NCBI RefSeq assembly: GCF_000004825.1
Contig: NW_008805068.1
Span: 434,001 to 498,000, forward strand
Source of the DNA: Heterostelium album PN500
Taxonomy: Eukaryota > Evosea > Eumycetozoa > Acytosteliales > Acytosteliaceae
Length of the DNA stretch: 64,000 nt
Direction of reading: 5' to 3'
The position numbers and the translations under genes were made by a program. Positions 1,905 to 60,041 of this stretch are shown here, piece after piece. Under the pieces are notes generated by a model. That model was not told the DNA's origin, did no database searches, and saw only the letters and a program-made list of their open reading frames with translations. Numbering within the stretch: the stretch's first letter is position 1; the number at the start of each line of letters is the position of its first letter.

Positions 1905-3932
1905 TTATATTTTCAAACTGTTGATTATTGCAAGTCTTGAATTGTATCCAATACAAAGGCTATTCTGTTCAACTCTATATGAATCTGTATGGCTTTTTTG
2001 AATAACAAAGTTGTTTTCTTTGAGATATTTAATCATTTGAATGTCACCTCGATTGATTGCATTGTCCATCGCATGAATCGTGAGTGATTCCGTTCGATTT
2101 CGATGGAGGTAAATGAGCATCGGTAGATCAAATGCTTTGTCCATTGGGAATTCTGGGAATGGTGCTCCAACTTCATTGAGATATTCAACAATTGGAAGAC
2201 AACCGCTGGAAATTGCTCTGGTTGTGTTTACATTGGTCACTTGATGTGTTGTGTTCTCATGAAGCCATTGGAATACAACCTTACTCTTAACATCGATTGC
2301 AATATTATATGCAATACCTGAGAATTGAAATCCACGCTCATTCAACCAATTGAAAACAGTTGGATCGGTCTCTTCACGAACGAAATTTTCTATTTGGAAA
2401 TTGGCAGGTTCAATATTGAAATTACCTGATGCCACTGCAATCTCATAGAGATATTTGAATATTGGAAAACTTGTACTATTAGAGAACCTATTGATGATTG
2501 ATTGATCGATATCCATATGTCTTACCTCCACAAGGAATCGGACAACATCAAGATGCTTATTAGCTATTGCCAAATGCAATGCACGTAGAGAACAGCCTTC
2601 AGTTCGATTGAAGTGCAAAAATTTGATCACATCCAAGTGTCCCATTTCCGCAGCTTTATCCATTGCATCGCTTCCACACTGTGCGGTGGTATTCTCGTGA
2701 AGGAATTGAACGATTTCAAGTCGTCCGAATTGGGCAACTCTATCCATCACCGTATTGTCTATCTCATAGAATTGACTGTATCTCTCTGATAGAAATAACT
2801 TTAACATTTCAAGATTACCTGTACGTGCCGCCCAAAAAAGAGAATCCGATGGCGGTCTCTCTGTTCTATTGGTCAAGAGGAATCTAACAACTTCAATATG
2901 ATTTCCTCTGATTGCACCTAGAAATGCGTAATCAGATATAACTTCATGAGTTAGATTGTTATGGATAAAGATAAGCACATCTAGATGTCCAAAACAAGCC
3001 GCATTCATGGTATGGGTAATAGAAGAACCTTCTGTTCGATGATGGTGAAGAAATTTGATTGTATTTAAATGTCCGTTGGTCGCTGCAAAATCATATGCAT
3101 CGGTTGAACAACCTTCAGTTCGATTGAAGTGCAAAAACTTTAAAATATCCAGTTGTCCATATCGTGCTGCGACGTCCATTAAATGTGGTTGAGTTGAATT
3201 CTCTCTAACTATCTGATCGAAAGGTGATCCATCTTTGACATTGTTATGAAAGAATTCGACAATCGGAAGATGACCATGTTGAACAGCTATTTCTAAAATC
3301 GATCTGATATTCAACTCATCTGGGAATACTTTGAATACACATTCAATGAGATCTAATGCACCAATACGAGCAGCATCTCTCAAAGAATGAAAATATAGTT
3401 GTTTGAATAGAACATAGGTACTAGTTTCGAGTGACCCAGCATCGCTATGAAAATCACTTTCATTGTAGTCTTGGAATCGCGCTATTTTTCTGCTCATTGG
3501 CTTAGTGATTGAAGAATATCTACTGATCTCTAGTTGTACCTGTTCTTTCTGCTCCTGCTCATATCGAATCTGTCTATCATATTGTTTCCTTTGATGGTAA
3601 TACAGATAGTTCATATAGAAACGGTGATACCATCGACGAAGTAAACCCGGTCGTTGATCTCTAATGACAGTATTGAATATCTGTTTGTATCTCTCGTGAT
3701 AACCATACTTGATAAGTTGATCTGGGTAACATCCAAGGTCATTGTAATCACAGAGTAATCTTCGCTTTTTGCACAGGTATGCTGTTCTAATACTTAATTC
3801 ATCAGCATTTACACATTCTTGTCGATTGATGATCTTCACAAAACTGAATATTTGATTCCGAATAAATTGTAAATGTAATAATCTCTTAAATAATTTACTT
3901 TTATAATTATCATATTCTATTATCATTTGCAT
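1905..3932 (-). CDS. Ankyrin-repeat protein, tandem copy 1
   Basis: A dictyostelid-type ankyrin protein of 675 residues. About a dozen degenerate repeats carry the recurring block FLHxNRTEGCS (around residues 170-640), preceded by a charged, aromatic N-terminal region. No other domain or membrane segment is seen. The open frame extends 20 codons upstream to 3992, but that extension is encoded by a poly-T tract. I chose the ATG at 3932 (MQM...) because the neighbour at 4058-6085 starts with MQ at the same point and then has the same length, 675. The two genes are tandem duplicates on the same strand. Partner and function are unknown; ankyrin repeats usually bind proteins. Confidence 0.88.
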   Translation of the reverse strand: MQMIIEYDNYKSKLFKRLLHLQFIRNQIFSFVKIINRQECVNADELSIRTAYLCKKRRLLCDYNDLGCYPDQLIKYGYHERYKQIFNTVIRDQRPGLLRRWYHRFYMNYLYYHQRKQYDRQIRYEQEQKEQVQLEISRYSSITKPMSRKIARFQDYNESDFHSDAGSLETSTYVLFKQLYFHSLRDAARIGALDLIECVFKVFPDELNIRSILEIAVQHGHLPIVEFFHNNVKDGSPFDQIVRENSTQPHLMDVAARYGQLDILKFLHFNRTEGCSTDAYDFAATNGHLNTIKFLHHHRTEGSSITHTMNAACFGHLDVLIFIHNNLTHEVISDYAFLGAIRGNHIEVVRFLLTNRTERPPSDSLFWAARTGNLEMLKLFLSERYSQFYEIDNTVMDRVAQFGRLEIVQFLHENTTAQCGSDAMDKAAEMGHLDVIKFLHFNRTEGCSLRALHLAIANKHLDVVRFLVEVRHMDIDQSIINRFSNSTSFPIFKYLYEIAVASGNFNIEPANFQIENFVREETDPTVFNWLNERGFQFSGIAYNIAIDVKSKVVFQWLHENTTHQVTNVNTTRAISSGCLPIVEYLNEVGAPFPEFPMDKAFDLPMLIYLHRNRTESLTIHAMDNAINRGDIQMIKYLKENNFVIQKSHTDSYRVEQNSLCIGYNSRLAIINSLKI

Positions 3933-4057
3933 AATAAAATAGGTAGAATTTTGAAATAAAAAAAAATGATCGTAGAAACCCATTTCGACCATTTTTGGAA
4001 TTATTTGATGATACTAACGTGATGGTTATGAGAATTTTCGAAAAAGTAATAATTTAT

Positions 4058-6085
4058 TTATATTTGCAAACTGTTGATTATTGCAAGTCTTGAATTGTAT
4101 CCACTACAAAGGCTATTCCAATCAACTCTATATGAATCTGTATGGCTTTTTTGAATAACAAAGTTGTTTTCTTTGAGATATTTAATCATTTGAATGTCAC
4201 CTCGATTGATTGCATTGTCCATCGCATGAATCGTGAGTGATTCCGTTCGATTTCGATGGAGGAAAGTGAGCATTGGCAGATCAAACGCTTTATCCATTGG
4301 GAATTCTGGGAATGGTGCTCCAACTTCATTGAGATATTCAACAATCGAATGAGAACCTATGGCAATTGCTGCCTCGGTGTTCTCAACGGTAAATGGATGT
4401 GTTGTGTTCTCGTGAAGCCATTGGATTGCCACTTTATTATTAATATTGGTTGCAAAATAATATGCAGCGCCTGAGATTTGAAATCCATGTTCTTGGAACC
4501 AATTGAAAACAGTTGGATCGGTCTCTTTACCAAAATAACTATCTATTTGGAAATTGGCTGGTTCGATATGTAAATTCTCTAATGCCACTGCAATCTCATA
4601 GAGATATTTGAATATTGCGAAACTTGTATTAAACGCTAACTGACCTACGATCGATTGATCGATTTCCCAATGTCTGACCTCCACAAGGAATCGGACAACT
4701 TCAAAGTGTTTATTATCTATAGCCGACCCCATCGCTTCTGGAGAACAGCCTTCCGTTCGATTGATATGGAGAAATTTGATCACATCCAGGTCACCCATTT
4801 CCGCTGCGAAATCCATTGCATCGCTTCCACACTGTGCAGTGGTATTCTCGTGAAGGAACCGAATGATTTCTAACTGGCCGTTACCCGCAGCATACTCCAT
4901 CACCGTATTGTCTATCTCATAGAATTGACGGTATGGCTCTGATAACAGCAACATTAACATATCAAGATGACCGTAACTCGCTGCCAACATAAGAGATTTC
5001 AGTGGAGGTCTCTCTGTTCTATTGGCCAATAGGAATCTAACAACTTCAATATGATTTCTTCTGATTGCATATTTATATGAGGATTTGGAAATAGTTTCAT
5101 GAGTTCGATTGTTGTGGATAAAGATAACAACATCTAGATGTCCATCACCAGCTGCATCCATGCCGTGGGTATTGGCGTTACACTCTGTTCGATGATGATG
5201 AAGAAACTCTACGATTGGTAAATGTCCATTATATGCTGCGGCATCAAGCGTAGAAGTTGAACAACCTTCAGTTCGATTGAAAAGTAAAAACTTTAAAATA
5301 TCCAACTGTCCATATTTTGCTGCGATATCCACCAAATGTGGTTGACTACGTTGTCTACGAGCTAAATCATCCAACTTTTTATCAAAAACACTTCCATCTT
5401 TGACATTGTTATGAAAGAATTCGACAATCGGAAGATGACCATGTTGAACAGCTATTTCTAAAATCAATCTGATATTCAACTCATCTGGGAATACTCTGAA
5501 TACACATTCAATGAGATCTAATGCACCGATACGAGCAGCATCTCTCAAAGAATGTAAATAGAGTTGTTTGAATAGAACATAGGTACTAGTCTCGAGTGAT
5601 CCACCATCGATATGAAAATCACTTTCATTGTAGTCCTGGAATCGCTCAATTCTTCTTTTGATAACCAAAAAGGAGGTAGAAGATCTACCAATCTCTAGTT
5701 GTACCTGTTCTTTCTGCTCCTGCTCATGTTGAATCTGCCAATCATACATTCTCCTATTAACGTAATACAGATAGTTCAAAGAGAAATAGTGATTCCATCT
5801 CTGTAGTAAACCCGGTCGTCGATCTCTAATGACAGTGTTGAATATCTGTTTGTATCTCTCGTGATAACCATACTTGATAAGTTGATGTGGGTAACATCCA
5901 AGGTCATTGTAATCACAGAATAATCTACGATTAGTTGAAAAGTAATTGTTAACTGTAACTGCACACTGTCGGTTGATGATCTTTACAAAACCAAATATTT
6001 GATTTCTAACAAATTGTAAATGTATTAATCTTTTAAATAATTTACTTTTATTGTTGTTGTTATAATCTACACTATTTACTTGCAT
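4058..6085 (-). CDS. Ankyrin-repeat protein, tandem copy 2
   Basis: Single-exon gene of 675 residues, paralogous over its whole length to the gene at 1905-3932. It shares the N-terminal block KSKLFKRLIHLQFVRNQIF, the same sequence of repeats and nearly the same C-terminal tail. The last roughly 190 coding bases differ from the neighbour at only a few positions, whereas the middle repeats are clearly diverged. Upstream lies an A/T-rich promoter. No catalytic domain is visible. It probably acts as a protein-interaction scaffold; this is inference from the repeat class only. Confidence 0.88.
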   Translation of the reverse strand: MQVNSVDYNNNNKSKLFKRLIHLQFVRNQIFGFVKIINRQCAVTVNNYFSTNRRLFCDYNDLGCYPHQLIKYGYHERYKQIFNTVIRDRRPGLLQRWNHYFSLNYLYYVNRRMYDWQIQHEQEQKEQVQLEIGRSSTSFLVIKRRIERFQDYNESDFHIDGGSLETSTYVLFKQLYLHSLRDAARIGALDLIECVFRVFPDELNIRLILEIAVQHGHLPIVEFFHNNVKDGSVFDKKLDDLARRQRSQPHLVDIAAKYGQLDILKFLLFNRTEGCSTSTLDAAAYNGHLPIVEFLHHHRTECNANTHGMDAAGDGHLDVVIFIHNNRTHETISKSSYKYAIRRNHIEVVRFLLANRTERPPLKSLMLAASYGHLDMLMLLLSEPYRQFYEIDNTVMEYAAGNGQLEIIRFLHENTTAQCGSDAMDFAAEMGDLDVIKFLHINRTEGCSPEAMGSAIDNKHFEVVRFLVEVRHWEIDQSIVGQLAFNTSFAIFKYLYEIAVALENLHIEPANFQIDSYFGKETDPTVFNWFQEHGFQISGAAYYFATNINNKVAIQWLHENTTHPFTVENTEAAIAIGSHSIVEYLNEVGAPFPEFPMDKAFDLPMLTFLHRNRTESLTIHAMDNAINRGDIQMIKYLKENNFVIQKSHTDSYRVDWNSLCSGYNSRLAIINSLQI

Positions 6086-6818
6086 AATTAATCGATCGAT
6101 AGATTCAATGACAATTAAAAATCATTAAAGAAAAAAAAACTGTCAAAGACAAGTCTATGTCCCGACTCAATCAAAAAAAAAAATTGAGAAAAAAAAAAGA
6201 ATTTACATATATTTATTTATTTTTAACTCAATCAATACATTCATAAATAAATAATGAAAAAAAAACAAAAATTATAATAATTTAAATGTTTATAAATTAT
6301 AATTTGAACCTATTCTCAATATAAACAGATTAGCAACCATGATCTTTATTTTGTTTTATTAACCCAATTTCCGATGAATGTAACTATTTCGGAGTGTTTA
6401 ACAAATAAAAAAAAACTGTTAAATTGTTGTTATCCAGAATACTTTTTTATTCTACTTTTAAGTTAAAATAATAAATCTCTGACTGAACATGGTAAAAATT
6501 TGATCTCAGATATTTTTTTAGTTTTTTAAATAATTATAAAACAATTGAGAGTCGAAATCAAAGCGAAATTTCTCACACGATCACTTTAGAAAATTCAAAG
6601 TAAAAATCAAAAAAGGTAATAGATATAATCATATACACTCGGTTCTAAAATAAAAACTCGGGTTCAATCCTCATTTTTTTGTTCATCAAAAAAAATACAT
6701 AAAAATTAAAAAATTATTTATTTTTAAGATTAGTATAAATATAAATAGCTATTTATATTTCAAAGGTAATGATGCAAACATAATTAATTAACCATCAAAT
6801 AATAACATTGTTATAAAA
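6086..6818. other. Intergenic spacer upstream of the BPI gene
   Basis: Divergent promoter region between the ankyrin gene (minus) and the BPI gene (plus). It is A/T-rich with long A runs. Bases 6373-6473 recur, with differences, at 12206-12307; they mark the left part of the duplicated block. A TATA element for the BPI gene is listed separately. Confidence 0.7.
6734..6748 (+). promoter_or_regulatory. TATA element of the BPI-family gene
   Basis: TATAAATATAAATAG lies about 70 bases before the start codon at 6819. It fits the dictyostelid core promoter pattern. Confidence 0.5.
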
Positions 6819-8396
6819 ATGGAACAAAAAAATATTATTATATTATTACTGTCATTACTTTTCTCTACTCAAATTTGCTATTGCCAACCAGGAAACTATA
6901 GTGCAGCCGGTGTATATGTTGGATTTTCTAATCAATTTATTTACGATTTTAGTTTAACTGTATTTATTTATCATTATTTTAAATATTAAATATTTTTATG
7001 TCAATCAACTAACTTTTATTTTAAATTTTTTTTTTTTTTTCCTTTCCCAAACAATTTTTATATCTATAAATAGTATACTGCTAAATTAGTTGATTATATA
7101 AATAGTTATCATATACCAGATATTTCCGGTACTTCTGGATCGATATCATATACTTTTTCATCTGTTACCATTAATTTGGATTTAGATGGTTTCTTTTTCA
7201 ATCAGGATCCAACTTCTTTTTTTATTGGTTGGGCCGACACTGAATTTAAGATTACATTCAACTATCACGTTTGTGAAGTTATATGTGAAAGTGGTTATGT
7301 TAATATTTATACTACCTCTGAGAATATCACACTTTCCACTGAGTTAATTCTCGACTACTCCACTTATATTGCAAATTTCAACTTAACTCAGACCACCATC
7401 GATTCTGACAAAGGTGATATTGTAATAGAAGCGCATTGTACCGATACCATTTGTCTCATTCCAGTCGGTGACATCTCCAATGCCATCTCCAATAGTTTTG
7501 TACCGACCCTCACCAATGGTATTACCAATGGATTGAATGAATACCTTGAAGCCCCCCAAAATTATATCTACACTTTCATCAAACTCCCCGAGTCTTTCAA
7601 TGACGTCACCTTCCAAATAGATTGTACCGGACAATTGGTCGAAGCTTCCAACTCCCCCTCATACTATCCTCCGCAAATGACCGCTGAGTTCATGGGTACC
7701 GTATTTGCCAGTATCAATGAAACCGTAGTTCCAGTTCCATTTAGTCCAAACTATATTCCCGATACCAGTTATCTCGAAAACATAGACGCTCCAATAGTCG
7801 TGACACTCACACCCTACATCTTCCAAAGTGTCGTCTACACTGGATTGGCAGTACTATTGCCAGTTACTGTTCAACCAAATGAGATTCCAGCTGCCTCGCC
7901 AATTAAATTGAATACATCTGATTCTTTCTTCTCATCGATTGCGCCAGGTCTCCTTCAATACCCAAATCTAGGTTTACTCCTCAATGTCTCTTCCAATAAC
8001 TATATCCCAACGGTAACAATCAACGCCACTGGAATGACTGTAGAGGTTGCCGTCGAAGCAGACTTTACCATTCTTTCACAACCACTCCAATATGCATTCG
8101 GTGTAAAGATTGACTTGCAAGTGGAGATTGTTAATGATGTAACCGTTTTAAATTCAACGACCATCGAACTAAGTTCAAAAATTTTGAATATTGTTCCAAG
8201 TTCAAGTATCACCTATTCCAATGTAGGTCAAGTAGATCCAACTGGATTCAACCAATTAGTTCAAATGGTTGAAGGTTTCATTAAAGTTCCTTCTTTCAAT
8301 ATCACCTTACCATCACAAATTCAAATTTCAAATACCACCATCAACTTTTATGATAATATCATTCAAATTCCAATTCATGGTACTATTTCTCCATAA
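6819..8396 (+). CDS. BPI/LBP-family secreted lipid-binding protein
   Basis: Predicted secreted protein of 487 residues in two exons, 6819-6959 and 7074-8396 (donor GTATTTAT, acceptor AATAG, phase 0). Residues 1-22 are a signal peptide (short polar start, LLLLSLLFS core, cleavage near CYC). The mature protein has the two-barrel plan of bactericidal/permeability-increasing proteins: DISGTSGSISYTF early in the N-terminal barrel, a proline-rich middle, and a C-terminal barrel ending in the typical pattern of a hydrophobic helix, LPSQIQISNTTI and a final strand. The length is typical. In animals such proteins bind lipopolysaccharide. For an amoeba feeding on bacteria, a phagosomal antibacterial role is a reasonable inference. 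A vestige of a second copy lies at 12206-12432. Confidence 0.87.
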
Positions 8397-8867
8397 TCAT
8401 TCATCCGACAAAATATTAAAGATTAATACTATTGCTATGGATTAATTGTATTTTAATTAAATAAAAAACGCTGTCATAATATTAAAATATGATTGTACTT
8501 ATAAATTTCTTGTGATCTATAATCCCTTTACAAACCACTTCATTGTAGTGATGAAATCGCAGGGTCATCTTCTCATTTGTATACTGGTCGAAAGTTTACT
8601 ACTCTAGTTCTACCTTGTGTAAAAATACTGATATTTTATAAAGAATTAGTGATATCTATACTTGTAGCATCAAAGATTACTATACATCTTATAGTCAACA
8701 AAGATTACTGTTATACTCTACACTATTTATTTGTCCAATGATAAAGGAAAAAAACTGGGGAAGATAAATTTTTTTACAAGGTGAAAAAAAAAAAAAAAAA
8801 ATTTTTTATTTATTTATTTTGCTTTTTTTTGTATATGTTTACTTAGTTTATCTGTAGACACCTTTAC
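8397..8867. other. BPI 3' flank and spacer
   Basis: The first about 110 bases are the conserved 3' flank shared with 12308-12432. After that the sequence has no counterpart in the right copy. It holds two near-identical short blocks, CAAAGATTACT plus ATAC, near 8670-8720. No gene is seen. Confidence 0.6.
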
Positions 8868-8968
8868 GTTAATCTGTTATCAAAGCTTTTTAACAGCAGG
8901 CCCGAGAGCTGTATAGCGGTTTGAGGCTTACCTGCTGACGGAGCTTTGTTAGTTGTATATCGATTAGC
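8868..8968. other. Three-tier inverted repeat, candidate structured RNA or element end
   Basis: Three nested 7-base stems can form in a GC-richer island. They are GTTAATC (8868-8874) with GATTAGC (8962-8968, one G-U pair), CAAAGCT (8881-8887) with AGCTTTG (8942-8948, perfect), and CAGCAGG (8894-8900) with CCTGCTG (8931-8937, perfect). The 30-base apical part has no strong pairing. It does not fold as a tRNA and I do not recognise the RNA family. It lies just before the decayed exonuclease-like gene and inside the segment that only the left copy has. Confidence 0.45.
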
Positions 8969-8998
8969 ACACTACTCCTTTTTTAAGCATTGTGAACA

Positions 8999-10488
8999 AT
9001 GAACGAATATAGATGTCCTAGCAGAGAAGACTGGGTTAAACTTGCAAATATATTTAGTTTAGAGTATGAGAGTTGTAGTATTAATGAAAACAAGGACTAT
9101 AAAAAGTTAATGCATAAGTTTTCAGAAGATTCTCCTGCTATAGATATTCAGTTTAATATCGACCAAACAATATTCTTAAATGTCTCAAACTACCTAAAAC
9201 TCAATCATTATTAATGCTAATTGTAAGTATGCCTTTTAATCTATATCTATTATATTTTTATTTTAAATGTTACCCAAAGGAACAAAAAGAAACTACTTGC
9301 TATGGAGATTGTAATGTTCAAGCGGTATTGGAAAAGTTTCATGAATATATCGAGCTTTATAGTGAACGAGAAGTCAGTATTTTTAAGAAAATATACTCAG
9401 ACTCACAACAAACAATTGAATCGTTGGATATCGTTGATGCATCAGCTGATGAGGATGATGGCGATGATGACGAGCTGGACGCCGATGACGATTTAGTGGA
9501 TCTAGACACTGGAGATCTCGTCGACACTGCCGTACAGCAGTCAGACAAGCCATCGATTCACAACCAAAGTTTTGGTTTCACTTCCGAAATGTCTCTTGAT
9601 GAAAGTACAAAGCTATCACTCGTATATTCTACCTGCGAAGAGTACTCTGTATCCGCCAATTGTCATGCTACAAAGACTCCATTAGAGCCAAGAAGGATAT
9701 ATTCTTTAATATATGTCTGAATGATGGATGCCAACAAGTTTTTGCGCAGGCTGCCGCTTACAATGCTCACAAAAACACCGCTCACGCGATCCACTCAGTA
9801 GTAGATCCTTCAAAATTGGAATGGGTTATCAAACAGAAGAATGGGTTTATGGCTAGGTTCATTGCCTTGCCAACTATCAGACCTCTTCTACGATCTCATC
9901 TCGATGAAAGTGAAAACCCGGCAGTAATTTTGGTGTTGGATACCGAGACCACTGGCAAATCTATATTGAAATTGAGATTACCATTGTTAACATATCCAAT
10001 GGTGATACCTTTTACCAAAGAATCAATCCTACCATAGTTATAGACAAAGAAGCATCAAACGTACATGGTATGACGAATCAATCTTTAGCTGGACATCAAT
10101 ATTGGAATGCAATAGAGCCTTCCCTATCATTCTATCACATGTATATGATAATCAATCTCTGTGCCCACTCAGCCTATACAAGTTTTTACGATATGTTGTC
10201 CAGTACCCAAATACCAAGGAATCCCCATACGTCAAGAAATTCTCTTTAATGGACACCCTACGCAAGAAACAAAAGGTGCAAGATGATTCATTGGATAACC
10301 AGATCAAGAAGTACACAGTTCCAGTTCTGACTGAATTGTGTGCGAAACTTAATATTGGTATTCCAAAGAAATCTTTGAAACAAGATGTCATCTTATTGGT
10401 GCTGGAATACATCAACTCCCAACCTGAAGACCAGCTAGGAACCACTTTACATACTGTTTTTTCTCAACTCGATAACATTAAAGAATAA
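8999..10488 (+). pseudogene. Decayed DEDD 3'-5' exonuclease-like gene
   Basis: Several overlapping open frames in the same direction together resemble one protein. They show an N-terminal region of unknown type, an Asp-rich acidic stretch near 9440-9530, a C2H2-like zinc finger (C-x4-C...H-x3/4-H) near 9715-9790, and the exonuclease motif DTETTG at about 9938-9955. NVHGMTNQSL, typical of the second part of DnaQ/RNase-T-like domains, follows in another frame. The last part (10102-10488) has a DTLRKKQ block and a SAP- or exonuclease-like LTELCAKL helix pair. At least three frame changes are needed, and no intron explains all of them. I call it a pseudogene. It lies in the segment absent from the right duplicate copy, so it may have been inserted there. 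Confidence 0.6.
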
Positions 10489-10612
10489 CAAAATAATAAA
10501 AAAAAAGTTCTTCCCTCACTTCGAATCATCCCCTGTTGAAAACTAACTTTCAAAAAACTTTTTTGTAAACATTGTAAAAAGAAAAATAGGAACATAGAGG
10601 AGAGATAATAAA

Positions 10613-11786
10613 ATGGGACAATCTACAAGCACTTTAAATAGTGGTATAATACGTAATAATCAAACTATATTACCGGATTTAATATGGAGAAATGTTATTG
10701 AGTTACTATCAGAGAATGAATGTAGAAAGCAACGACATCAATGGAATCCATTGTCATTGTCATTGATATCACACTATTGGTTAGTTAATATCATTGCTAA
10801 ATCAACACTTAGAATAACAACACTCAACAGTAAATCACAATTTATTATCGGCTTTCCATTGACTTTTCAAAGATCATACCATCAACTTAATAACAACAAC
10901 AATAATAATAATAACAATATAGATAGAAAGTTTAATATCTCTAAATTCACTTTGATCTACAAAGGAATCACCGATGGTACAACTAAAATAGATACTAGCT
11001 CTTTAATGTTCAAATTGAAAAGCACGGTCGGTAAACAACCGTTCCAATAATGTACCGTTGAAACTTGCAGCTTGGTTCCCAAACGTTGAAAAGCTGACAC
11101 TTAATCATGTCTATCATCGGCTGGTGAACACCCACGCCAAGGAACCTGGCGACCAACCGGAATCGCTTCTTGGCGGTATGAAACAACTGAGATATCTAGC
11201 GATAACCAATCAACCATTCGATCACCAGGAAGACAATCATGACAATCTCTTTAGGGAATATAGAAATGGTCCGACCGGTAAAGTCTTTCTCAAGGATATC
11301 GATGCTATCGGACACAATCTCCACACTCTCAAGCTTAAAGGTCGGACGATGCCTCCCAATCTACTAGGTTGGAACACTCTTGAGACAATGGTTAATCTCC
11401 GTACACTATCGATTCATAGTAACGTAAAGATGGATACCGATTATCTAGGTTTGCTATTGGAATCGTTTAGACTGAAGAAACTCTCTATTCACATGGATGA
11501 GCAACTACTCATTGGCTTTCTTCATTACAACAAAAACGTTCAACACTTGAAAGCACGTAGATTGAATTCCTTTGATTTCAAACTGGTCTATTCAGCTTTC
11601 GAGAGAGCTTTGACAATACCCAAAGATATAACAATGTTCTTCAGAGACGCCTTAATAAGAAGTGATCAGGAAATAGCATATCAACTGCCAATAGCTTTTA
11701 AGAACTCCAAAGACTGTATCATATCCTACCGAACAGAACACGAAAACAAACTAGACAAACTAAACAATCTTTTGACATTGGAATAA
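10613..11786 (+). pseudogene. F-box-like/LRR gene broken by internal deletion
   Basis: Bases 10613-11030 match the first 138 codons of the whole copy at 12541-14169, including the MGQSTSTLNSGII start and the ILPDLIWRNVIELL F-box-like helix. Homology then jumps. Bases after about 11031 correspond to 13359 onward, so about 404 bases (LRR region) are missing. Because 404 is not a multiple of three, the upstream frame ends at 11050 and the rest is open in another frame (11058-11786). The left breakpoint lies in a short GGT-containing repeat, which suggests microhomology-mediated deletion. A 145-residue N-terminal protein could still be made. Confidence 0.85.
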
Positions 11787-12080
11787 ACATTTGTCAATGT
11801 CAATTCTTGAATCTATAAAATCTATTGGTATAGAGCAACTGGTTCTACATTAAACAATATTTAAATTAGATAAATAGAAAACATTTTTTTATACTGTTAA
11901 TCACTTATCATTATAAAAAGCAGCAATCATTGGTCAATATGTATAAATAGAATGTTTAATTAATGCTGTTTTTCAAGAGAATAAATCAATTCTTTTATTG
12001 TTATTACAAATGATTATTAATAGTTAATTTTTGTTTGCTTTGTTTTGTTTAGTTTTGTTTAGTTTTGTTTTGTTGATTGT
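11787..12080. other. Spacer between the broken F-box-like gene and the CGL remnant
   Basis: This sequence is nearly the same as 14170-14421 in the right copy, with TTTTG-rich repeats (GTTTTGTTTA units) near 12040-12075. It is the 3' flank shared by two convergent genes. No gene is seen. Confidence 0.7.
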
Positions 12081-12145
12081 TTAGATCTTGTCCAATGCTT
12101 GTGAAAGATCAGCAATCAAATAGTTAACATCTTCAATACCAACTG
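12081..12145 (-). pseudogene. Vestige of a second cystathionine gamma-lyase gene (last 21 codons)
   Basis: The reverse strand reads [20 protein letters not shown] and a stop. It corresponds to 14422-14486 of the whole gene with one amino-acid difference (N-D-L becomes N-Y-L). Directly upstream of it on the minus strand, at 12147-12190, the sequence matches 15938-15983, which lies beyond the start of the whole gene. About 1.45 kb containing the rest of the gene has therefore been deleted. It is not functional. Confidence 0.85.
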
Positions 12146-12205
12146 CGTATGCTGAACTAGTAAAAAAAAAAAAAAAGTAAAATAAAAAATTTTTTTGATC
12201 ATCCA

Positions 12206-12432
12206 GATGAAAGTAACTAAATATTTCGGAATGATTTAACAAATAAAAAAAAACTGATAAATTTTTATCTAGATTACTTTTTTATTCTACTTTTAAGTTA
12301 AAATAATGGAAATTCTCCATAATCATTCATCCAATAAAATATTAAAGATTAATACTATTGCTATGGATTAATTGTATTTTAATTAAATAAAAAAAATACT
12401 GTCATAATCTTAAAATATGATTCTTTGTTCAA
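12206..12432 (+). repeat. Vestige of a second BPI gene: upstream flank fused to 3' end
   Basis: Bases 12206-12307 match 6373-6473 (BPI upstream) and 12308-12432 match 8384-8505 (last codons and 3' flank of BPI). The whole coding region between them, about 1.9 kb, is missing. This shows that the duplicated block once included the BPI gene. Confidence 0.8.
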
Positions 12433-12540
12433 ACCACCAATCAGGTTTACAAAAAGTTTTTTATATCAGACTTTCAAAAATTTTAAAACTTTTTGTAAAC
12501 ATTGTAAAAATAAAAATAGGAACATAGAGGAGGTAATAAA

Positions 12541-14169
12541 ATGGGACAATCTACAAGCACTTTAAACAGTGGTATAATACATAATAATCAAACTATATTA
12601 CCGGATTTAATATGGAGAAATGTTATTGAGTTACTATCAGAGAATGAATGTAGAAAGCAACGACATCAATGGAATCCATTGTCATTGTCATTGATATCAC
12701 ACTATTGGTTAGTTAATATCATTGCCAAATCAACACTTAGAATAACAACACTCAACAATAAATCACAATTTATTATCGGATTTCCATTGACTTTTCAAAG
12801 ATCATACCATCAACTTAATAACAACAACAATAATAAAACAGTTGATAGAAAGTTTAATATCTCTAAATTCACTTTGATCTACCAAGGAATCACCGATGGT
12901 ACAACTAAAATAGATACTAGCTCTTTAATGTTCAAATTGAAAAGCACGGTCGGTGTTAAGCTTGGTGTAGACCGCTGGTTAGAGCTGTACAATGAAGCAC
13001 TGCTTTCTTTCTGGTCGGTGGAATCGTTCGCCGCTGTAGGATTGCCTCTCAACCAGAATATAGATTGTCTCTCGATAAGCAACCAACTGAGGAATCTAAC
13101 TGTCTATGCCACTCACGGACATCTTTTCAAACTAAACAATCTAAGCTCGTCTTTTCCTCTGCTGCAGAGACTGCATCTCTGTGCAAACGAAAACTTTGGT
13201 ATTATGACCAACCTGATTCTACCACAACTGCACCGCATGAAATCGCTAACGAATCTTTCGCTTGGCGACTACTTCACTGTGATACCGATGATAGATCCAC
13301 AGCCGCTAACCAACATTAAGACACTGTCGCTGAACTACATCCACAAAACCCAATGGGTAGATAACCGTCCCAATAAAGTACCGTTGAAACTCGCAGCTTT
13401 GTTCCCAAGCGTTGAAAAGCTGACACTCAATCATATCTATCATCGGCTGGTGAACGCCCACGACAAGGAACCTGGCGACCAACCGGAATCGCTTCTTGGC
13501 GGTATGAAACAACTGAGATATCTAGCGATAACCAATCAAACACCATTCGATCACCAGGAAGACAATCATGACAATCTCTTTAGGGAATATAGAAACGGTC
13601 TGACCGGTAAAGTCTTTCTCAAGGATATCGATGCTATCGGACACAATCTTCACACTCTCAAGCTTAAAGGTCGGACGATGCCACCCGATCTACTCGGTCG
13701 GAACACTCTTGAGACAATGGTTAATCTCCGTACACTATCGATTCATAGCAACGTAAAGATGGATACCGATTATCTAGGTTTGTTATTGAAATCGTTTAGA
13801 CTGAAGAAACTCTCTATTCACATGGATGAGCGACTACTCATTGGCTTTCTTCATTACAACAAGAACGTTCGACACCTGAAAGCACGTAGATTGAATTTCT
13901 TTGATTTCAAACTGGTCTATTCAACTTTCGAGAGAGCTTTGACAATACCCAAAGATATAACAATGTTCTTCAGAGACGCCTTAATAAGAGGTGATCAGGA
14001 ATTAGCATATCCACTGCCAATAGCTTTTAAGAACTCCAAAGACTGTATCATATCCTACCGAACAGAACATGAAAACAAACTAGACAAACTATACAATCTT
14101 TTAATGTTTATTCCAATTCCAATGTCAATACTTGAATCTATTGGTACAGAGCAAATGGTTCTACATTAA
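12541..14169 (+). CDS. F-box-like/LRR family protein (whole copy)
   Basis: Single-exon gene of 542 residues. Residues about 19-70 (ILPDLIWRNVIELL, then LSLSLISHYWLVNIIAKST) have the helix pattern of a divergent F-box. An Asn-rich linker follows at about 97-103, and then about ten irregular leucine-rich repeats up to the C-terminus. The relatives are 52551-54125, the left-edge fragment 1-629 and the broken copy 10613-11786. The start follows a purine-rich leader shared with the broken copy. F-box proteins recruit substrates to SCF ubiquitin ligases through LRRs. That role is inferred here, because the Skp1-binding consensus is weak. The gene lies tail to tail with cystathionine gamma-lyase. 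Confidence 0.82.
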   Translation: MGQSTSTLNSGIIHNNQTILPDLIWRNVIELLSENECRKQRHQWNPLSLSLISHYWLVNIIAKSTLRITTLNNKSQFIIGFPLTFQRSYHQLNNNNNNKTVDRKFNISKFTLIYQGITDGTTKIDTSSLMFKLKSTVGVKLGVDRWLELYNEALLSFWSVESFAAVGLPLNQNIDCLSISNQLRNLTVYATHGHLFKLNNLSSSFPLLQRLHLCANENFGIMTNLILPQLHRMKSLTNLSLGDYFTVIPMIDPQPLTNIKTLSLNYIHKTQWVDNRPNKVPLKLAALFPSVEKLTLNHIYHRLVNAHDKEPGDQPESLLGGMKQLRYLAITNQTPFDHQEDNHDNLFREYRNGLTGKVFLKDIDAIGHNLHTLKLKGRTMPPDLLGRNTLETMVNLRTLSIHSNVKMDTDYLGLLLKSFRLKKLSIHMDERLLIGFLHYNKNVRHLKARRLNFFDFKLVYSTFERALTIPKDITMFFRDALIRGDQELAYPLPIAFKNSKDCIISYRTEHENKLDKLYNLLMFIPIPMSILESIGTEQMVLH

Positions 14170-14421
14170 ACAATATTTAAATTAGATAAATAGAAAACAT
14201 TTTTTTTATACTATTAATATTAATCACTAATCATTATAAAAAAGCAATCATTGGTCAATATGTATAAATAGAATGTTTAATTAATACTGTTTTTCAAGAG
14301 AATAAATCAATTCTTTTATTGTTATTACAAATGATTATTAATAGTTAATTTTTGTTTTGCTTTGTTTTGTTTAATTTTGTTTTGTTTTGTTTAGTTTTGT
14401 TTTGTTAATATTATTGATTGT

Positions 14422-15774
14422 TTAGATCTTGTCCAATGCTTGTGAAAGATCAGCAATCAAATCGTTAACATCTTCAATACCAACTGACAAACGAATCAAA
14501 GTATCGGTAATACCCAACTTGATTCTCTCCTCCAATGGTACAGAAGCATGAGTCATCAATGATCTGGAAATAATTAATAGAATGATTATTATTAGTAATT
14601 TGAAAAAACATTTGAACTTGATGATGATGGTAATTCAAATTTGAAATGTTTCAACTTACGGTAATTCAACCAAACTTTCAACACCACCCAAACTTTCGGC
14701 CAATGCGAATACCTTGAGGTTCTCCAAGATCTTCTTTGATTCGTCGAGTCCACCCTTGCAGAAGAAAACGACCATACCACCGTAACCCTTCATTTGACGC
14801 TTGCAAATCTCGTGTTGTGGATGCGATGGCAAACCTGGGTAGATGACACGATCGACCTTTGGATGTGACTCTAGGAATTTGCAGACGGCGAAAGCGTTCT
14901 TCTCGTGCTCTCTCATTCTGACGTGGAGAGTCTTGATACCACGAATGGCGAGGAAACAATCGAATGGCGATGGCACGGCACCGATTGAGTTTTGGAGGAA
15001 TTTGAGCTTGGCGTAGAGTGCCTCGTCGTTGGTTGCCAGACATCCCATGACGACGTCAGAGTGACCGTTGATATACTTGGTGATGGAGTGCATGACGATG
15101 TCGGCACCCAAGTCCAATGGATTCTGGAAGTATGGCGACATGAAGGTGTTGTCGACCACCAAGATGGCGTTCTTGCTGTGTACAAAGTCGGCGACCAACT
15201 TGATGTCGGCGACCTTCAACAATGGATTGGTTGGAGTCTCCAACCATACCAACTTGGTCTTCTCTGTGAAAGCGGCAGCCAATTGATCCAAATTGGACAT
15301 ATCGACGAAACTGAACTTCATACCAAAGTTGGCGGCAACACGTGACATGTAACGTCTGGTTCCACCGTAGACGTCATCGACAGAGATAACCTCGTCACCC
15401 GATTGGAGTGAGTTGATAATGGTAGTCAAAGTAGCCAAACCACTTGCAAATGTTAAAGCATACTTGGCATTCTCTGCAGCTGCCAAACATTCCTCCAAAG
15501 CTTTTCTAGTTGGATTACCTGATCTTGAGTAATCATATCCCTAAACAATAGTAATAGTAATAACAATAATTATATATTAGTTTTGATCTTTTCTCTCTCT
15601 CTCTCTCTCTCTCTCTTTGAATATTAGTAATATACATACACCTGGCAATACATTTGGTGATGGTTGCAAGAAAGTGGTTGACAAAGAAATTGGGAGGATG
15701 ACAGCGCCTGAAGTTGGTTCAGCTGGTTGACCAGCATGAATAACCTTTGTTCCGATTCTATAGTTATTGGCCAT
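14422..15774 (-). CDS. cysA: Cystathionine gamma-lyase
   Basis: PLP enzyme of reverse transsulfuration that cleaves cystathionine to cysteine, 2-oxobutyrate and ammonia. Three exons on the minus strand: 15640-15774, 14660-15540 and 14422-14563. Total 385 residues, matching the family. Diagnostic blocks are [11 protein letters not shown] after the first splice, [21 protein letters not shown], and [12 protein letters not shown], whose Lys (about residue 202) forms the Schiff base with PLP. The C-terminal block [16 protein letters not shown] spans the second splice and [11 protein letters not shown] ends the protein. No organelle signal is seen, so it is probably cytosolic. Introns are 99 and 96 bases; the first holds a (TC)n tract. 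A deleted second copy is at 12081-12145. Confidence 0.95.
15592..15616. repeat. (TC)n microsatellite in the first CGL intron
   Basis: An unbroken TC dinucleotide run of about 25 bases. On the coding strand it reads as a purine (GA) tract shortly after the 5' splice site. Confidence 0.9.
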
Positions 15775-16362
15775 CTTTATTTATATGTATATATATATGT
15801 GTAAATGTTAAATATGTAAAATATGTAATTTTAAATTTGTTTAATTGATGATATTATTGGTGGTTTTTGAATGATATTTTTTTTGTTTAAAACAAATTTG
15901 TTGTCAAAAATATTGGCATAGAAATCAACGCTTATAATATGCTGAACTAGTAAAAAAAAAAAAAAGTAAAATAAAAAATTGGGAAAACAGATGATTCTCA
16001 TTCGATTAGAGAATACTTCTTTTACCTCAGCACAACACAATCCCAAAAAAAGAAAATTAAAAATAATTTTTCTTTTTTTTCTTTTTTTTTTTTTTCTTTT
16101 TTGTTTTTATAATCTGATCTTATCTTTCTTTCTTTTAATTAATAAAATATTCTGGAATGGAAACTGGGGAATTCAATTCGTTTTAAGACATCTGGTCACA
16201 ATAATAATTGTTACCATCAACTTTTATTTTAAAAACAAAATATGTTGTTTTTAAAAAGAAATATCATAACTATGCAAAAAAAAAAAAAAAAAAATGAAAA
16301 ATGAAAATGAATGAAAAGTAATTTGAAAAAAATACAAAAGAAATAATATATTCATTTAAAAA
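15775..16362. other. Divergent promoter spacer between CGL and BLOC1S6
   Basis: A/T-rich sequence. Bases 15938-15983 recur at 12147-12190. A pyrimidine-rich tract (mainly T with C) spans about 16068-16105. The open frames here are low-complexity and not credible genes. Confidence 0.7.
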
Positions 16363-17328
16363 ATGACAGAAGTAGATATTACTACTAATAATAATAATAC
16401 ATCTACAAATGATGATGTAAATAATAATAATAATGATAACAATGTAGAAGATAGTAATAATAGTGTAAATAGTAAAAAACAAGATTCATCGAATAATGTT
16501 AATGTCACCACTGGTGAAATAGAACAACAACAACAACAACAACAACACCCAGTAGAACAAACACATAACAATATATTAACATCACAACAAGCATTGCAAT
16601 TGGAGATGAATGAAGTAAGCAATGAAATGAATAAAGCTATTCCACAGCTAACAGAGGGTATCTTGCTAATGACAAAGATCCCTCTCGACGCACTCACTAT
16701 GAAACTATTGGAGTTACAAAAAGAACAGACTGCACTACTCTCACTGATGTCAAGTGAGAATCAAAAACTACAAAGTGTTAAGGGTGTAGATATTATTTTT
16801 GAAAATGTAAGTGTGCATTTCAGCCAGCCAGCAATCAATTGAATTATTATAAATGTATAGAATATCATTATATTTATATCATTAGTATCAGTCAGTTCAT
16901 TATCTAGATAGAATGAGCTAAATATAATGATATTTTTATATATTTATTCATCATTTTTGAAATCTGTATCTTATCATCTAATTATCATAAAATATAATGA
17001 TTTTTATATTATCGTTATTCTTTCTTTTTTTTTTTTTTTTTTTTTTAGTTTTAAGAAGATCAATGAATATCTATTAAAAGTTCAGACAATGAAGAAAGAG
17101 ATGTCGAATGTCAAGGAGAGAATGACTAAACTTCAAAAGAGAGCAGTCAACTTGAAGGAAAAGAAACAACAGCATATCAATAATTTAAATGAGCGTGTCG
17201 AAAAAGCATTGCAAAGAGAGAGAGATCTCACTGTAAAACCATCACCACAACTTGTACAACAGCAGCAACAACAACAACTTCAACCACAAAAGTCTAAAGA
17301 ATCTTTAAACACGAATGTTAATTTATAA
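16363..17328 (+). CDS. bloc1s6: BLOC-1 subunit 6 (pallidin) homologue
   Basis: Likely subunit of the BLOC-1 complex, which acts in traffic to lysosome-related organelles. Exons 16363-16806 and about 17056-17328 give about 238 residues. The N-terminus is Asn/Gln-rich (residues 1-65). LTEGILLMTKIPLDAL (about 98-113) and then long coiled coil follow. The block MTKLQKRAVNLKEKKQQ and the tail ERDLTVKPSP match the end of pallidin. The donor is GTAAGT. The acceptor next to the T-tract (AG at 17047-17048) would give an immediate stop, so I use the next AG (17054-17055), with a further AG three bases later. The acceptor choice is uncertain by one codon. Identity rests on the coiled-coil pattern, which can mislead, but the tail match is specific. 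Confidence 0.7.
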
Positions 17329-17729
17329 ATAAATATATTATTATTAGTTTGACAAACAAACTTGGCTTGACTTTGAAGTTTCTACTTTAAATAATAACGT
17401 TATTTAAAATGCATTGCAAAATAACTTTTATTCAACAACTTTTCAAAAAAACAAAAATAAAAACCGTCAGATTTTTATTTTTGGGTGTTTCATCTCAAAA
17501 AGTCTTTGAATCAAGTTTCTGTTTTGGGGGTGAATTATTTCGAAATTAGTTGAAAAAAATAGAATCACAGAAAAAAATGATTGATTATGAAACAACAGAT
17601 TTTTGAAAATAGCACAGATCAAAATAAAAACAAAATTTTAAAAAAAAAAAGAACTGTTGTTCACACACGATCCGATATGTTATTAATAATAATTAATATA
17701 ATTTTATTAAATTAAAAAAAAAATAAAAT
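17329..17729. other. Convergent intergenic spacer
   Basis: About 400 bases between two converging genes, with A/T runs. Nothing else is recognised. Confidence 0.6.
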
Positions 17730-18411
17730 TTATTTAGTATTATTGGTTTTACAATATATATGGTCATTCACTGTTTTTGTTGAGATAGCATATTTACCAT
17801 ACTCAAATTCTACTGTCACAGTGTTAAAAAGTGAGTTGATTTTAAAGCTAATTGATTCAACCACAAATCTTGCAGCAACTCCTGATTTAAGGGTATCTCT
17901 GAACCACCAGTCGTTGGTAATCAATTTTGGATACTTGAAACTTCTCTCTCCATTTGGGTCAAGTAGAGTGCACTTGTAGTGATGTATAATAACTGACATT
18001 TTGGTATCAAAAGAAATAGACGGAGCTACTTGAGGTGAATGAGAAAGTTGTGAAATGAATTGCATAGGAGATGTTTCAAAGCCATCTTTAGTCACACCAG
18101 TGATTGTTTTGTATGAACTAAATTTGACTTTTCCATCTGTCACTATTCCTTTTCTTTTTCTACCTCTGGTATGATATAGTTCAGTCGCTACTGGGGAAGT
18201 TGGTCCACCTGTAGTCAGAGCGTTTGGCACAGCTTCAATATGGGTTGTTGTACTAACGGTTCTTGGATTTGACCCAACTGGTGTAGGTGGATTTAACTCG
18301 GTCGTTGTTGGCTCTCGACCTCTTGATCCTGGACTGAGTCTTCTATTAGTGTATTTTTTGGCATAACTGTTCTCACCTACTTGATTGTTTGATAAAGTAA
18401 AAGATCTATTT
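17730..18411 (-). CDS. Hypothetical protein, 5' exon not found
   Basis: The frame is open from 18411, where an acceptor (TTTTAAAG on the minus strand) seems to end an intron, down to the TAA at 17730: 226 codons and the stop. The N-terminal half is basic, with Ser/Thr/Pro (RRLSPGSRGREP, GRKRKG). The C-terminal half (about residues 130-226) looks like a compact mixed alpha/beta domain with NDWWFRDTL and a TVTVEFEYGKYAIST strand pair. I do not recognise the family. The start codon should lie in a 5' exon within 18420-18660, but no ATG with a matching donor and phase stands out. It converges on the BLOC1S6 gene. Confidence 0.5.
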
Positions 18412-54615: not shown

Positions 54616-56308
54616 TTAATGGTATATCGTATTATCCGAAAGATATCTAATTACTGCATTGTTATCTCTATGTTGAATAAGTCTATCGATTGGGTCGTAT
54701 GTAGTAAACTTGAAATCAATATTGTTCTCTTTTAATGTTGGTATAAATTCATCGAGGAAATCGATTAAAAAATCAAGATCCTCCATATCAAATGATTCAC
54801 TATTGATTAATATTGATTTTAGTGTCTTTGAATGGTAATTCAACAGTGATGATAGGAAGTCTATGTTGTTATAGTCAGGGCAACAATTCCAATCTTTTCG
54901 CATGTCAATTGTGAATCGTTCGATACCATGTCCATCGATATTGGGTGTGCTAACAAACAGATCTTTCAGAAAATTACTGTAGTTTTCTTCGAATCCATGA
55001 TACCCTAAAACAATGATCTCTTTGAGGTTTGGCATTGGTGGTGGACGTATTAAGTATCCATCCTTAATAATTGCTGCACGGTAAGCTTTCTTAATGTCGT
55101 CAGGTTCGTAGTAATCAATGTATATATCTTCCGATCTAGAAATTCCACCATTGATCGAATGATCATATTCATCTGATTCCATTACGAATGTTTCAACTCT
55201 TGACAACAATTGATTGGCATATTCTATGCCTTGATCATATGGAATGTATTTGATTGATTCATAATCGAAATACAGTGGTGATGATTTGATTAAGTTGTAA
55301 TCACTTTGGTTGTTGATATCGATAAATGAATTCCAATAGAATAGATTGTTGTTGATGATCTTTGAAACAACTCTGAAGAATTGTTTCGATATTAATGCAA
55401 AATTCATTACATTTTCGCCATCTATGAGATAAGGTATAAAGAATAGCAGATTTTTGAATTTATAGTCTCGAGAGGTTCTTTCATCCTTATCATTATCAAA
55501 GGCAACAAAATTTGAAATGATTTTGCAAAGTAATATATCTGATAATTTGGAAATACTATTGTCGGTGGTTATTGTATCTGTTGTTGTTTCTGTTATTGTT
55601 GTTATTAATGTTGTTGCTGTTGTTGTTGATGTTTCTTCTCTTATTGATTCAACATTATCATCTTCTTCTTCATCAATACTCTTGTCATTATATACGATAT
55701 CATAAAGATTATTATAGGTGAAAAAGTCAAGTGGTTCACTCCTCTCTTCTTCGAATGTATCACAAACTCTCGATATCTTTGATTTCAATTGAGTTTCATC
55801 TGATTCATTCAACTCTTTAAAGAAAGTGTTGAACTTAATAGCAAACTATTAGTATTATTAAATAAATGAAGATTAATTGTAATTCAATACATACTCTATT
55901 ATCTTTGACAATCCTGTAATAAATATCTTTTAATACATTGTTTTGTCTTACACTTTTTAACATTAGAATTTCATTGAATACATCTGCAGATCGATCAAAG
56001 AATACATCAGCAATGAACTTAGCATAACCTTTGACATCGAAGTAATGTGGGAATTTGTCATCGTTGTGATAATCAACAAAGAATCTAACACATTTCAATT
56101 TTGTTTCTGAATTCAAATCGTATTTATCATCTTTTGATTTAAAATATTGATCATAGATTTTGATAAGATCTGAAAGTGAATTATTTCCTTCATAAACATA
56201 TCTCTTTCTATTCTTTCTTACTGTCCGTCCTGTCTTTCCTCTGCCTCCTGTTGCATTATTACCTTGATCTTGATTAATCTCATCAAACGTCCTCTTTTCT
56301 GAATTCAT
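54616..56308 (-). CDS. Two-exon F-box-like family protein, paralogue A
   Basis: Exons 55895-56308 and 54616-55845 give 547 residues (donor GTATGTAT, acceptor TACTAATAG, phase 0). The N-terminus is basic. A conserved domain of about 90 residues follows, with IKIYDQYFKS and HYFDVKGYAKFIADVFFDRS. An F-box-like segment lies after a Thr/Ile-rich linker (LSDILLCKIISNF ... FALISKQFFRVVSKIINN). The C-terminal half has leucine-rich blocks, with DYESIKYIPYD, RPPPMPNLKEI and GHGIERFTIDM shared by the three paralogues. The others are at 56769-58469 and 60042-61678. I know no characterised member. Ubiquitin-ligase adaptor function is a guess from the F-box-like helices. Confidence 0.8.
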
Positions 56309-56768
56309 TTCTATTAATTCTATTTAATAAAAGAACTACCGCAGATCAAAGGTTTAAAATGAAAATCTAAGATAAAACACAAAAGTGTTATTTTTTTATT
56401 ATTTTTATTGCAAAAAAAAAAGGAGCTTTCCATAAGATTGTATCAATACCGAAGTTTTCACCAGAGTCATCATCTTCACTACCTTCAGTAATGTTTGCAT
56501 TGGTGAACATAGTAAAATAGTTCAATATTAGAGAGAGCAAAAACTTAAATTATTATTTTCATCATTTTGTTATTGTTTTTTTTTTTTTTAAAATAGAGGT
56601 TTTTATAATAAATGTTTGGTCAATTGAATCAAATTTAGTTATATATATTATAAAAAAATATATAAATAAATATTATTTTAAAATATAATAAATTGAGATT
56701 AAGATAGGAGATTATTTATTTTACAAAATTAATTCCTAAACTTACACTCCAATGTTTTTATTAATTAA
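56309..56768. other. Spacer between paralogues A and B
   Basis: A/T-rich DNA containing one short coding-like frame (listed). TATA-rich repeats lie near 56640-56680. Confidence 0.6.
56388..56510 (-). CDS. Possible 40-residue open frame
   Basis: It begins ATG at 56510 and reads MFTNANITEGSEDDDSGENF then GIDTILWKAP, ending in homopolymer-coded residues. The first 30 codons have a balanced composition, unlike the spacer around them. It may be an isolated exon or the remnant of a family gene. No homologue is recognised and no splice partner was found. Confidence 0.25.
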   Translation of the reverse strand: MFTNANITEGSEDDDSGENFGIDTILWKAPFFFAIKIIKK

Positions 56769-58469
56769 TTATTCATTAAATTCTGAAATTTGTAGAAGGA
56801 ATTGAAATACATCTTCTGATCGTTTTACTTTTTGAAATTTTTTTTGATCAAGTTTGATATTCCACGAAAATTTAATTCCGTGATCATTCAATTTCGGAAG
56901 TATAGTCTTCAAGAGTCCATCTAGATTCCTATAGTCAGAATCATTGAATTTCTTTTTAGGGTATAATAATCTAATGGATTTCAAAGTAGTTGAATGTAGC
57001 TTTACCAGTGTTCTGATGAAATCAAAATAAATAGTGGAGGGTCTGCCTTCAAAATTTTTTTTGACTTCCATGGTGAATCGTTCAATTCCATGACCATTGC
57101 CACTTGGTGTGCCTTGGATGATGTGCGATAGCAATTTGTCGTAGTTAACTTTGTATCCATGGTATTGATAAACATAGATCTCTTTGAGATTTTGCATTAC
57201 TGGAGGATATACCAAATATCCATCTTCCACCATACTCTGACGATATTGTTCTTCGATAGTTTCATGATCATTAAAACTGTTCTTGTAAACTGATTCCCTC
57301 GCAACTGAAACATCGGGATCTGTTGTATCTGAGTAACAGAATGTATCCACTGAATGATCGAATTCATCGGATTTCACTGTAAAGGTTTCAACTCTTGAAA
57401 AAAAACGGTTGATATGGTCAACACCTTTGTCATATGGAATATATTTGATTGATTCATAATCGAAATACATTGGTGGTAATCTAAATAAACTGTATTCATT
57501 ATTATTATTGTTGTTATTTTTAAGGTTATTGTTGTTGTTATTGTCAAAGTTGAAATTGAGATATCCTGTCCAAGATACTAATCGGGTATTGGTTGCCTTT
57601 GCAATGGCCTTAAAGAACTGTTTCGATACCAATGCATAATGTAATAGATGTTTTCCTTTAATGATCTTTGGTGACTCATTTGTAAGATTTTTGAAATTTA
57701 CAAAAACATTATTGGTACTGATAATATACGCAATGATATTATCCAACATTATATCTGAAAGTTTGGCATTGACAGGATGAACGATATCATACAACTTTTC
57801 ATAGGTGAAAAAGTTCAGTTTGTATTCCTGCTCTGGTTCAAACAAACCTTCTAATCTCGCAATTTTAAATTTCAAAAGATTGATATTTGATTCATTTAAA
57901 TTAATAAACCATTCTTTAAACTATTTAAATATATAAGTTAGTTAGTTCTTTAAATCAACTATTTAATAATAAATACATACTCTTTTGTCATCAATAATTG
58001 CTTGATAAGTAGGCTTAACAACACCAGTGTTAAATAACTTAAATTCAGCAGTTAATACCTTTAGAGCATCGAATACATCATCCGATGGATCAAAGAATAC
58101 TTCAGCAATGAATTTAGTAAAACCTCTGACATCGAAATAGTGTGAATACTTTGAGTCATTATGGTAATTAGCAAAGAAACCAACACATTGTTCTCTTACT
58201 GATTCTGTAGAATCACTATGACTACATCTAAAATAGAGATCATAGATTCCAATAAAGTTTGTAAGTGTATTGAAATCTTTGAAATTAAATGTTGAGTGTA
58301 ATGATTCTATTATGTTGTTTTTATCTGTTTGATTATTATCATCTGATTTAGTGCTATCTATTTTCTTTAATTGTTGAGATGAGAGTGATTCATCGAGAAG
58401 TAAATCTTCATGTGTTCTCTTTTGTCCTATAACATTTTCTTTATCTTTAACTTTATCTGAAGGTATCAT
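56769..58469 (-). CDS. Two-exon F-box-like family protein, paralogue B
   Basis: Exons 57981-58469 and 56769-57920 give 546 residues. The intron sits at the same place and phase as in paralogue A: the codon for the Arg in DDKR or DNR, then FKEW or FAIK. The N-terminal domain has IGIYDLYFRCS and HYFDVRGFTKFIAEVFFDPS. The F-box-like part is LSDIMLDNIIAYI ... YALVSKQFFKAIAKA. The C-terminal half has FDYESIKYIPYDKG and HGIERFTMEV. An Asn-rich insert lies in the middle. The start ATG (58469) follows an A/T-rich leader. Confidence 0.8.
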
Positions 58470-59019
58470 TATATTTATATCTTATTGGTCTTAAAAAAAA
58501 TCAAAAAAATTGATGATCATTTTTGATCTTACCCATAAAAAATTGCTCCAATCAACTGACCATGTTTCTTGTCATTTTTAAAAAAAAAATGATTATTATT
58601 TATGATCATTTAAACTAATCTGTTTTTATTTTTATTATTAATTTATAATTTATGATAGCTTAATGTTGAATTCAAGTTATTTGAAAAACAAAAGAGCGAT
58701 ATATATTTCAAAGAATTATCATTTTCTAGAAAACATTAATAGTTTAACTAAATCATTTTAAATATGAAATCAATTTACAATTTAATTTACTCTTTTCTAC
58801 TTAATTTTTATTAGTACATTTAATTTTAAATTAATATATTAGATAAAGGTCAAAGATCAGACTATCAGTTAGTTAGATAAAGGAATAATAAATTTAATAG
58901 TCTTGATATCTTTACAAATTTAATTAAGATAAATTAAAATAAAAATTAGAAATAATTTATTGTTTATAAAATAAAAAATATATTATTAATAAATATGTTG
59001 TTGAAGAGATAACAAAAGA
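58470..59019. other. Intergenic spacer
   Basis: About 550 bases of A/T-rich DNA. No gene or strong dyad is seen. Confidence 0.6.
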
Positions 59020-59628: not shown

Positions 59629-60041
59629 TTTCTGATCTTTAAATAATCTTGTAAAATAATTTTAACAAATAATTATAAATAAAAAAAATTGATATATGTT
59701 TCTTTCTTTGAGTACCAATTTAAAATTAACAAAGTGACATTTTTTTTAATCAAGTTTGATTATTTTTAAAATATTTAAATTATTTAATTTATATATTGCT
59801 AATAACAACAAACTAAAAGTATAATTTAATTTCAAAAGAAGAAAAGAATTAATCAATTAATTATCACCCAAGCTTAATTATAATAAATAAATTGAAATAT
59901 GTTATTTTTTTACCTAAAACCAGTAATCCCTGCAAAGATACTATGAAATTAAGGTTAAAGTGGGAAAAATGTTGAAAAGTAACAAAAAAAACCAATAATT
60001 TTAACGAAATTCAATGTTTTTATATGATTTATTTATAAATA
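59629..60041. other. Intergenic spacer
   Basis: About 410 bases, A/T-rich, promoter of the preceding small gene. Nothing else is seen. Confidence 0.6.

Follow-up and report, generated by a model that had tools for sequence, protein, structure and literature searches.

A tandemly duplicated three-gene block with complementary gene remnants in the genome of Heterostelium album

Background

Duplicated genes can follow several fates, some of which have been given names of their own. Divergent resolution, in the strict sense, denotes the retention of different copies of a duplicated gene by different lineages, while birth-and-death evolution is the concept applied to clustered gene families. Loss of one duplicate with a return to the single-copy state is stated to be the most common fate in PMC9252495. 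Reciprocal loss of duplicates leading to hybrid incompatibility is described for the rice pairs S27/S28, DPL1/DPL2 and DGS1/DGS2 in PMC7870705, which also covers incompatibilities of closely linked genes, a phenomenon of another kind, and for Mimulus in PMC5896889.

The locus examined here lies in the genome of Heterostelium album PN500 and comprises a BPI-like gene (BPI), an F-box-like gene and a cystathionine gamma-lyase-like gene (CGL). The original prediction, made from the nucleotide sequence, held that two copies of this three-gene block lie head to tail, that each gene survives once and that such a case of divergent resolution could create incompatibility between strains. Among the papers listed by the literature searches, none describes this locus in its title or in the opening of its abstract.

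Methods

The window, i.e. the whole stretch of 64,000 nucleotides that was analysed, corresponds to C7:434001-498000 in a genome of 32.9 Mb distributed over 39 contigs; positions refer to the window unless a contig is named. Identities of the matches obtained by self-comparison are BLAST values in which gaps are counted. A genome-wide protein search for the F-box-like family listed 26 matched stretches. Twenty family loci were taken, three of which are the two blocks, and the alignment combines the right copy with ten full-length open reading frames (ORFs). L034, which has an internal stop, and L036, L037 and L039-L042, which are fragments or second pieces of the same genes, were left out of the alignment, as were six further stretches, among them long open frames on contigs C28 and C29. 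The start of L035 was set at its MG, its ORF extending further upstream.

Results and discussion

Organisation of the duplicated blocks

Self-comparison of positions 4001-18000 displays the parallel diagonals expected from the original prediction, in the form of five direct matches that are collinear and delimit two blocks, arranged head to tail, at approximately 6361-12191 (left) and approximately 12206-15985 (right). Order and orientation are the same in all five matches, hence the layout is a tandem one and the proposed pair of BPI / F-box-like / CGL copies is upheld. Segment A, the upstream flank of BPI, lies at 6373-6472 (+) in the left block and at 12206-12307 (+) in the right (86.7% identity). 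Segment B pairs the final BPI codons, stop and 3' flank of the left block (8387-8494, +) with 12313-12422 (+) of the right block, which holds the last two codons and the stop of the lost BPI followed by the 3' flank (93.6%). Two longer matches pair 10554-11032 with 12485-12954 (96.0%) and 11030-12145 with 13356-14486 (91.8-91.9%), and segment D, situated upstream of the lost CGL gene in the left block (12148-12191, +), pairs with 15938-15980 (+) at 97.7%. The joint between the blocks (12192-12205), examined by eye, has a clear match to neither parent side.

In a DNA search of the 32.9 Mb genome, segment A (120 bases), segment B (114 bases) and a word of 16 bases taken from segment D (reversed control, zero) were each seen at two places, one per block, counts that are not absolute since the search skips very common words. 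As these flanks were seen at the two copies only, the diagonals are attributed to a local tandem duplication, and an origin by chance or from dispersed repeats is ruled out. Neither the window nor the adjacent upstream 10 kb (locus L053) contains any N. Searches of the window for tRNA genes with ARAGORN (bacterial code) and for known RNAs with Rfam at gathering scores returned none. Elsewhere in the window, at 54812-61611, lie several direct repeats, approximately 120-600 bp long, that have diverged to 68-78% identity.

Complementary remnants of the three genes

BPI is open in the left block (6819-8396, +) and would encode 487 aa with a hydrophobic N-terminus, the intron being taken as 6960-7073, which gives the longest product among the nine frame-keeping choices listed. 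Its 406-aa ORF (7176-8396) matches the Pfam model LBP_BPI_CETP_C (E 2.5e-06), and one paralogue (47%) was found elsewhere, on contig C3. In the right block the gene is reduced to flanks, as had been claimed, with the last two codons and the stop remaining within segment B; the C3 paralogue aligns across these codons, yet extends 13 residues beyond them. About five extra bases are present at the deletion joint, which, by eye, also yields a chance short reading frame from an ATG (12306-12371).

The F-box-like gene and CGL are both open in the right block, in agreement with the original prediction. The former is an intact ORF of 542 aa at 12541-14169 (+). Its left counterpart (10613-11786, +) is broken: 404 bp corresponding to 12955-13358 of the right copy are missing, the frame is shifted and the first ORF stops at 11050, with GGT shared by the two ends of the deletion. 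CGL (14422-15774, -) would encode 385 aa and has introns at 15541-15639 and 14564-14659; the 280-aa ORF of its main exon matches the Pfam model Cys_Met_Meta_PP (E 1.5e-116), and a relative with 41% identity lies on C29. The left CGL remnant (12081-12145, -) comprises 62 nt (the final 20 codons plus two bases) and the stop, differs from the right copy by one substitution in 65 aligned sites and has two extra bases at its deletion joint. The gene content of the left copy is in line with the original prediction.

Each of the three genes is therefore open in one block and a remnant in the other, so that each survives once, as predicted. The remnants show loss and not gain, because 20 terminal CGL codons persist on the left and the last two BPI codons with the stop, to which the C3 paralogue aligns, persist on the right.

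DNA between BPI and the left F-box-like gene

The original prediction did not set apart positions 8800-10506 (+) of the left block, which the genome search identifies as an interspersed repeat with broken reading frames lying outside the duplicated unit; the whole of 8495-10553 as part of that unit is ruled out for this portion. The search returned 28 matching stretches including the repeat itself, located on C38, C27, C10, C11, C5 and C25 besides C7. The main copies, on C38 (two), C27, C10 (two) and C11, are 92-96% identical, and shorter pieces on C5, C10, C25 and C27 are 74-100% identical. The first approximately 460 bases are common to most copies and the 3' end to some, while the interiors differ.

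The adjoining stretch 8495-8775 (-), absent from the right block, where about 62 bases stand in its place, is probably the decayed 5' end of an ankyrin-repeat gene. Its local scores of 40 against 5300-6250 and 41 against 3150-4030 were reached by none of 500 shuffles, and both control stretches were negative; under another scoring the signal was weaker, ank2 lying above all 300 shuffles and ank1 within them. A genome-wide DNA search with this stretch listed itself alone. The two tandem open ankyrin-repeat genes whose 5' ends this stretch resembles lie to its left, at 1905-3992 and 4058-6085 (-), encoding 695 and 675 aa with 82.5% DNA identity, and belong to a large family (213 matched stretches). 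If 8495-8775 is the relic of a third ankyrin copy, as seems probable from these comparisons, either the right copy underwent a further deletion or the left copy gained DNA.

The F-box-like family and a neighbouring block

The name F-box-like, carried over from the original prediction, is without Pfam support, as none of the 11 family members matches any F-box model at E up to 1. PDB sequences offered no useful match for the family (one weak match, E 0.24). All 11 aligned rows, i.e. the right copy and members within L025-L038, carry MG at the start and S at position 6, an arrangement which we take to resemble an N-myristoylation signal. Clusters of the family containing intact as well as broken members are found on C7 and C3, from which it follows that loss of copies is usual for this family.

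Another tandem block was observed just upstream, at C7:428033-434626 (window -5967 to 626; L053 and the window start), comprising an F-box-like gene and a gene termed P450-like from the look of its translation. The P450-like part is 91.9% identical over 1786 bp; the left F-box-like copy is fragmented and the right one open. Frame breaks occur in both P450-like copies, and the block was accordingly rejected as a second instance of reciprocal loss.

Divergence between the copies and the age of the F-box-like break

Noncoding substitutions between the blocks number 6 in 97 sites for segment A, 5 in 108 for B, 2 in 56 for the upstream flank, 3 in 225 for the 3' flank and 0 in 43 for D, a pooled divergence of 16/529 (3.0%). 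With these small samples, homogeneity across the five segments narrowly escapes rejection (chi-square p 0.10), and the values are compatible with one duplication event. The F-box-like pieces differ at 8/414 sites and, up to codon 520, at 32/739 sites; the final 69 coding sites carry 13 differences and may be partly misaligned. A codon-by-codon comparison of the left and right copies over 402 codons gives a dS of 0.079 and a dN/dS of 0.46, the dN/dS values of two young intact pairs being 0.86 and 1.04. When 31 amino acid differences were polarised against the ten paralogues, they fell 5 to 5, with 21 unclear.

No stop interrupts the 383 codons of the left F-box-like gene up to codon 520, an absence that is uninformative given its probability under neutrality (0.56 with 20 substitutions, 0.30 with 41). 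The 24 amino acid differences in 41 substitutions over the same 383 codons agree with neutral evolution of the left copy all along (simulated P 0.54 and 0.34 for a right-copy omega of 0.2 and 0.4, respectively). Dating of the break by dN/dS is thus not decisive, simulated neutral loss fitting equally.

The gaps weakly favour a late break, an argument whose force depends on the control used. Apart from the 404-bp deletion, none of the gaps in the 1153 sites aligned up to codon 520 alters the frame on balance, one being of net 6 bases (4 plus 2) and one of 3 bases; a 4-base gap follows at right-copy codon 522. The noncoding segments, in DNA that is here homopolymer-rich, have 10 non-triplet gaps in 529 sites, and this difference suggests, without proving, that the left F-box-like gene broke after the duplication. 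In a control, the exon-like parts of the broken P450-like pair, 1278 sites carry 14 non-triplet gaps and 47 substitutions, from which the probability of zero gaps on the left copy is 0.002, or 0.17 without the ten of the 14 that lie in one cluster and possibly reflect an assembly error. That the break is so recent that wild isolates may still differ as to the copy that is intact, the locus being caught in mid-resolution, is a doubtful proposal; were it true, a single locus would provide a natural series of intermediate states.

Proposed history and alternative explanations

The locus is best explained by a single tandem duplication of an ancestral block followed by separate deletions, a reading to which we assign a probability of about 0.88. 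The ancestor would have been a single block in the order A - BPI - B - F-box-like - CGL - D. After its one tandem duplication, a separate deletion would have removed BPI from the right copy, while the left copy would have lost the greater part of CGL and, in the F-box-like gene, 404 bp; in each case end joining with scarcely any or no homology would have sealed the break. In the left copy, an interspersed repeat would have inserted into the stretch that separates BPI from the F-box-like gene. We infer both the single-block ancestor and the order of the losses, which we regard as neutral pruning of redundant copies.

The three deletion joints differ from one another (GGT shared in the F-box-like gene, two extra bases in CGL and about five in BPI), in favour of separate deletions. 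Joints of this kind, with at most 3 homologous bases or with a few bases added, are also in keeping with a single-step origin, in which one replication accident with several template switches would have built the mosaic and the reciprocal loss would be as old as the duplication. A single fork could plausibly traverse the necessary path, skipping forward past part of the F-box-like gene and CGL, jumping back and skipping forward past BPI, and the left F-box-like gene carries substitutions consistent with neutral evolution from the duplication onwards. We nevertheless consider such an accident improbable in view of the lack of a net frame-changing gap up to codon 520 against 10 in 529 noncoding sites, an argument tempered by the stricter P450-like control, which is not significant (P 0.17). 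Display of two alleles or misjoined reads as tandem copies by the assembly is very unlikely, as a divergence of 3 to 4% is spread across the segments, each copy has distinct deletions and N is absent. The compact joint in the right block might also be taken to mean that this block never lost BPI and that the left one gained it by insertion once the duplication had taken place; the last two BPI codons and stop retained in the right block, through which the C3 paralogue aligns, leave this idea with hardly any credibility. Duplication followed by separate deletions remains the preferred reading and accounts for the locus in few steps.

Comparison with known systems

Tandem duplication with complementary loss within this genome is well supported. 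The name divergent resolution would apply in its strict sense if a second strain or species kept the other copies. The extension to incompatibility between strains, which presupposes such a second lineage and copies that assort, finds no support and is weak: less than 10 kb of one contig holds both copies, so independent assortment is not expected, and alternative resolutions would presumably seldom be separated by recombination. Neither is the reciprocal pattern surprising, since random loss of one of the two copies of every gene leaves genes in both blocks in six of the eight outcomes possible for three genes. The locus is a clear but ordinary example of the pruning of duplicated genes and alone shows neither a new mechanism nor a speciation effect. 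Its value is that of a compact, readable teaching case of a multi-gene tandem duplication returning to single copy, with a footprint for each loss, and it could be used to order the deletions in time, given sequences from other isolates.

The rice and Mimulus cases resemble the present locus in that different copies are kept at two places. However, they compare species or strains, and their duplicate copies are reportedly unlinked, whereas here both copies lie close together in one genome. The mixture of intact and broken genes in the F-box-like clusters of C7 and C3 is reminiscent of birth-and-death evolution, although BPI and CGL stand outside any expanding cluster and were carried along. 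The likeness to a tandem (segmental) duplication returning to single copy lies in the deletion of one copy of each gene, and the present locus departs from the ordinary course of that process in that the losses are split between the copies and their remnants are unusually readable.
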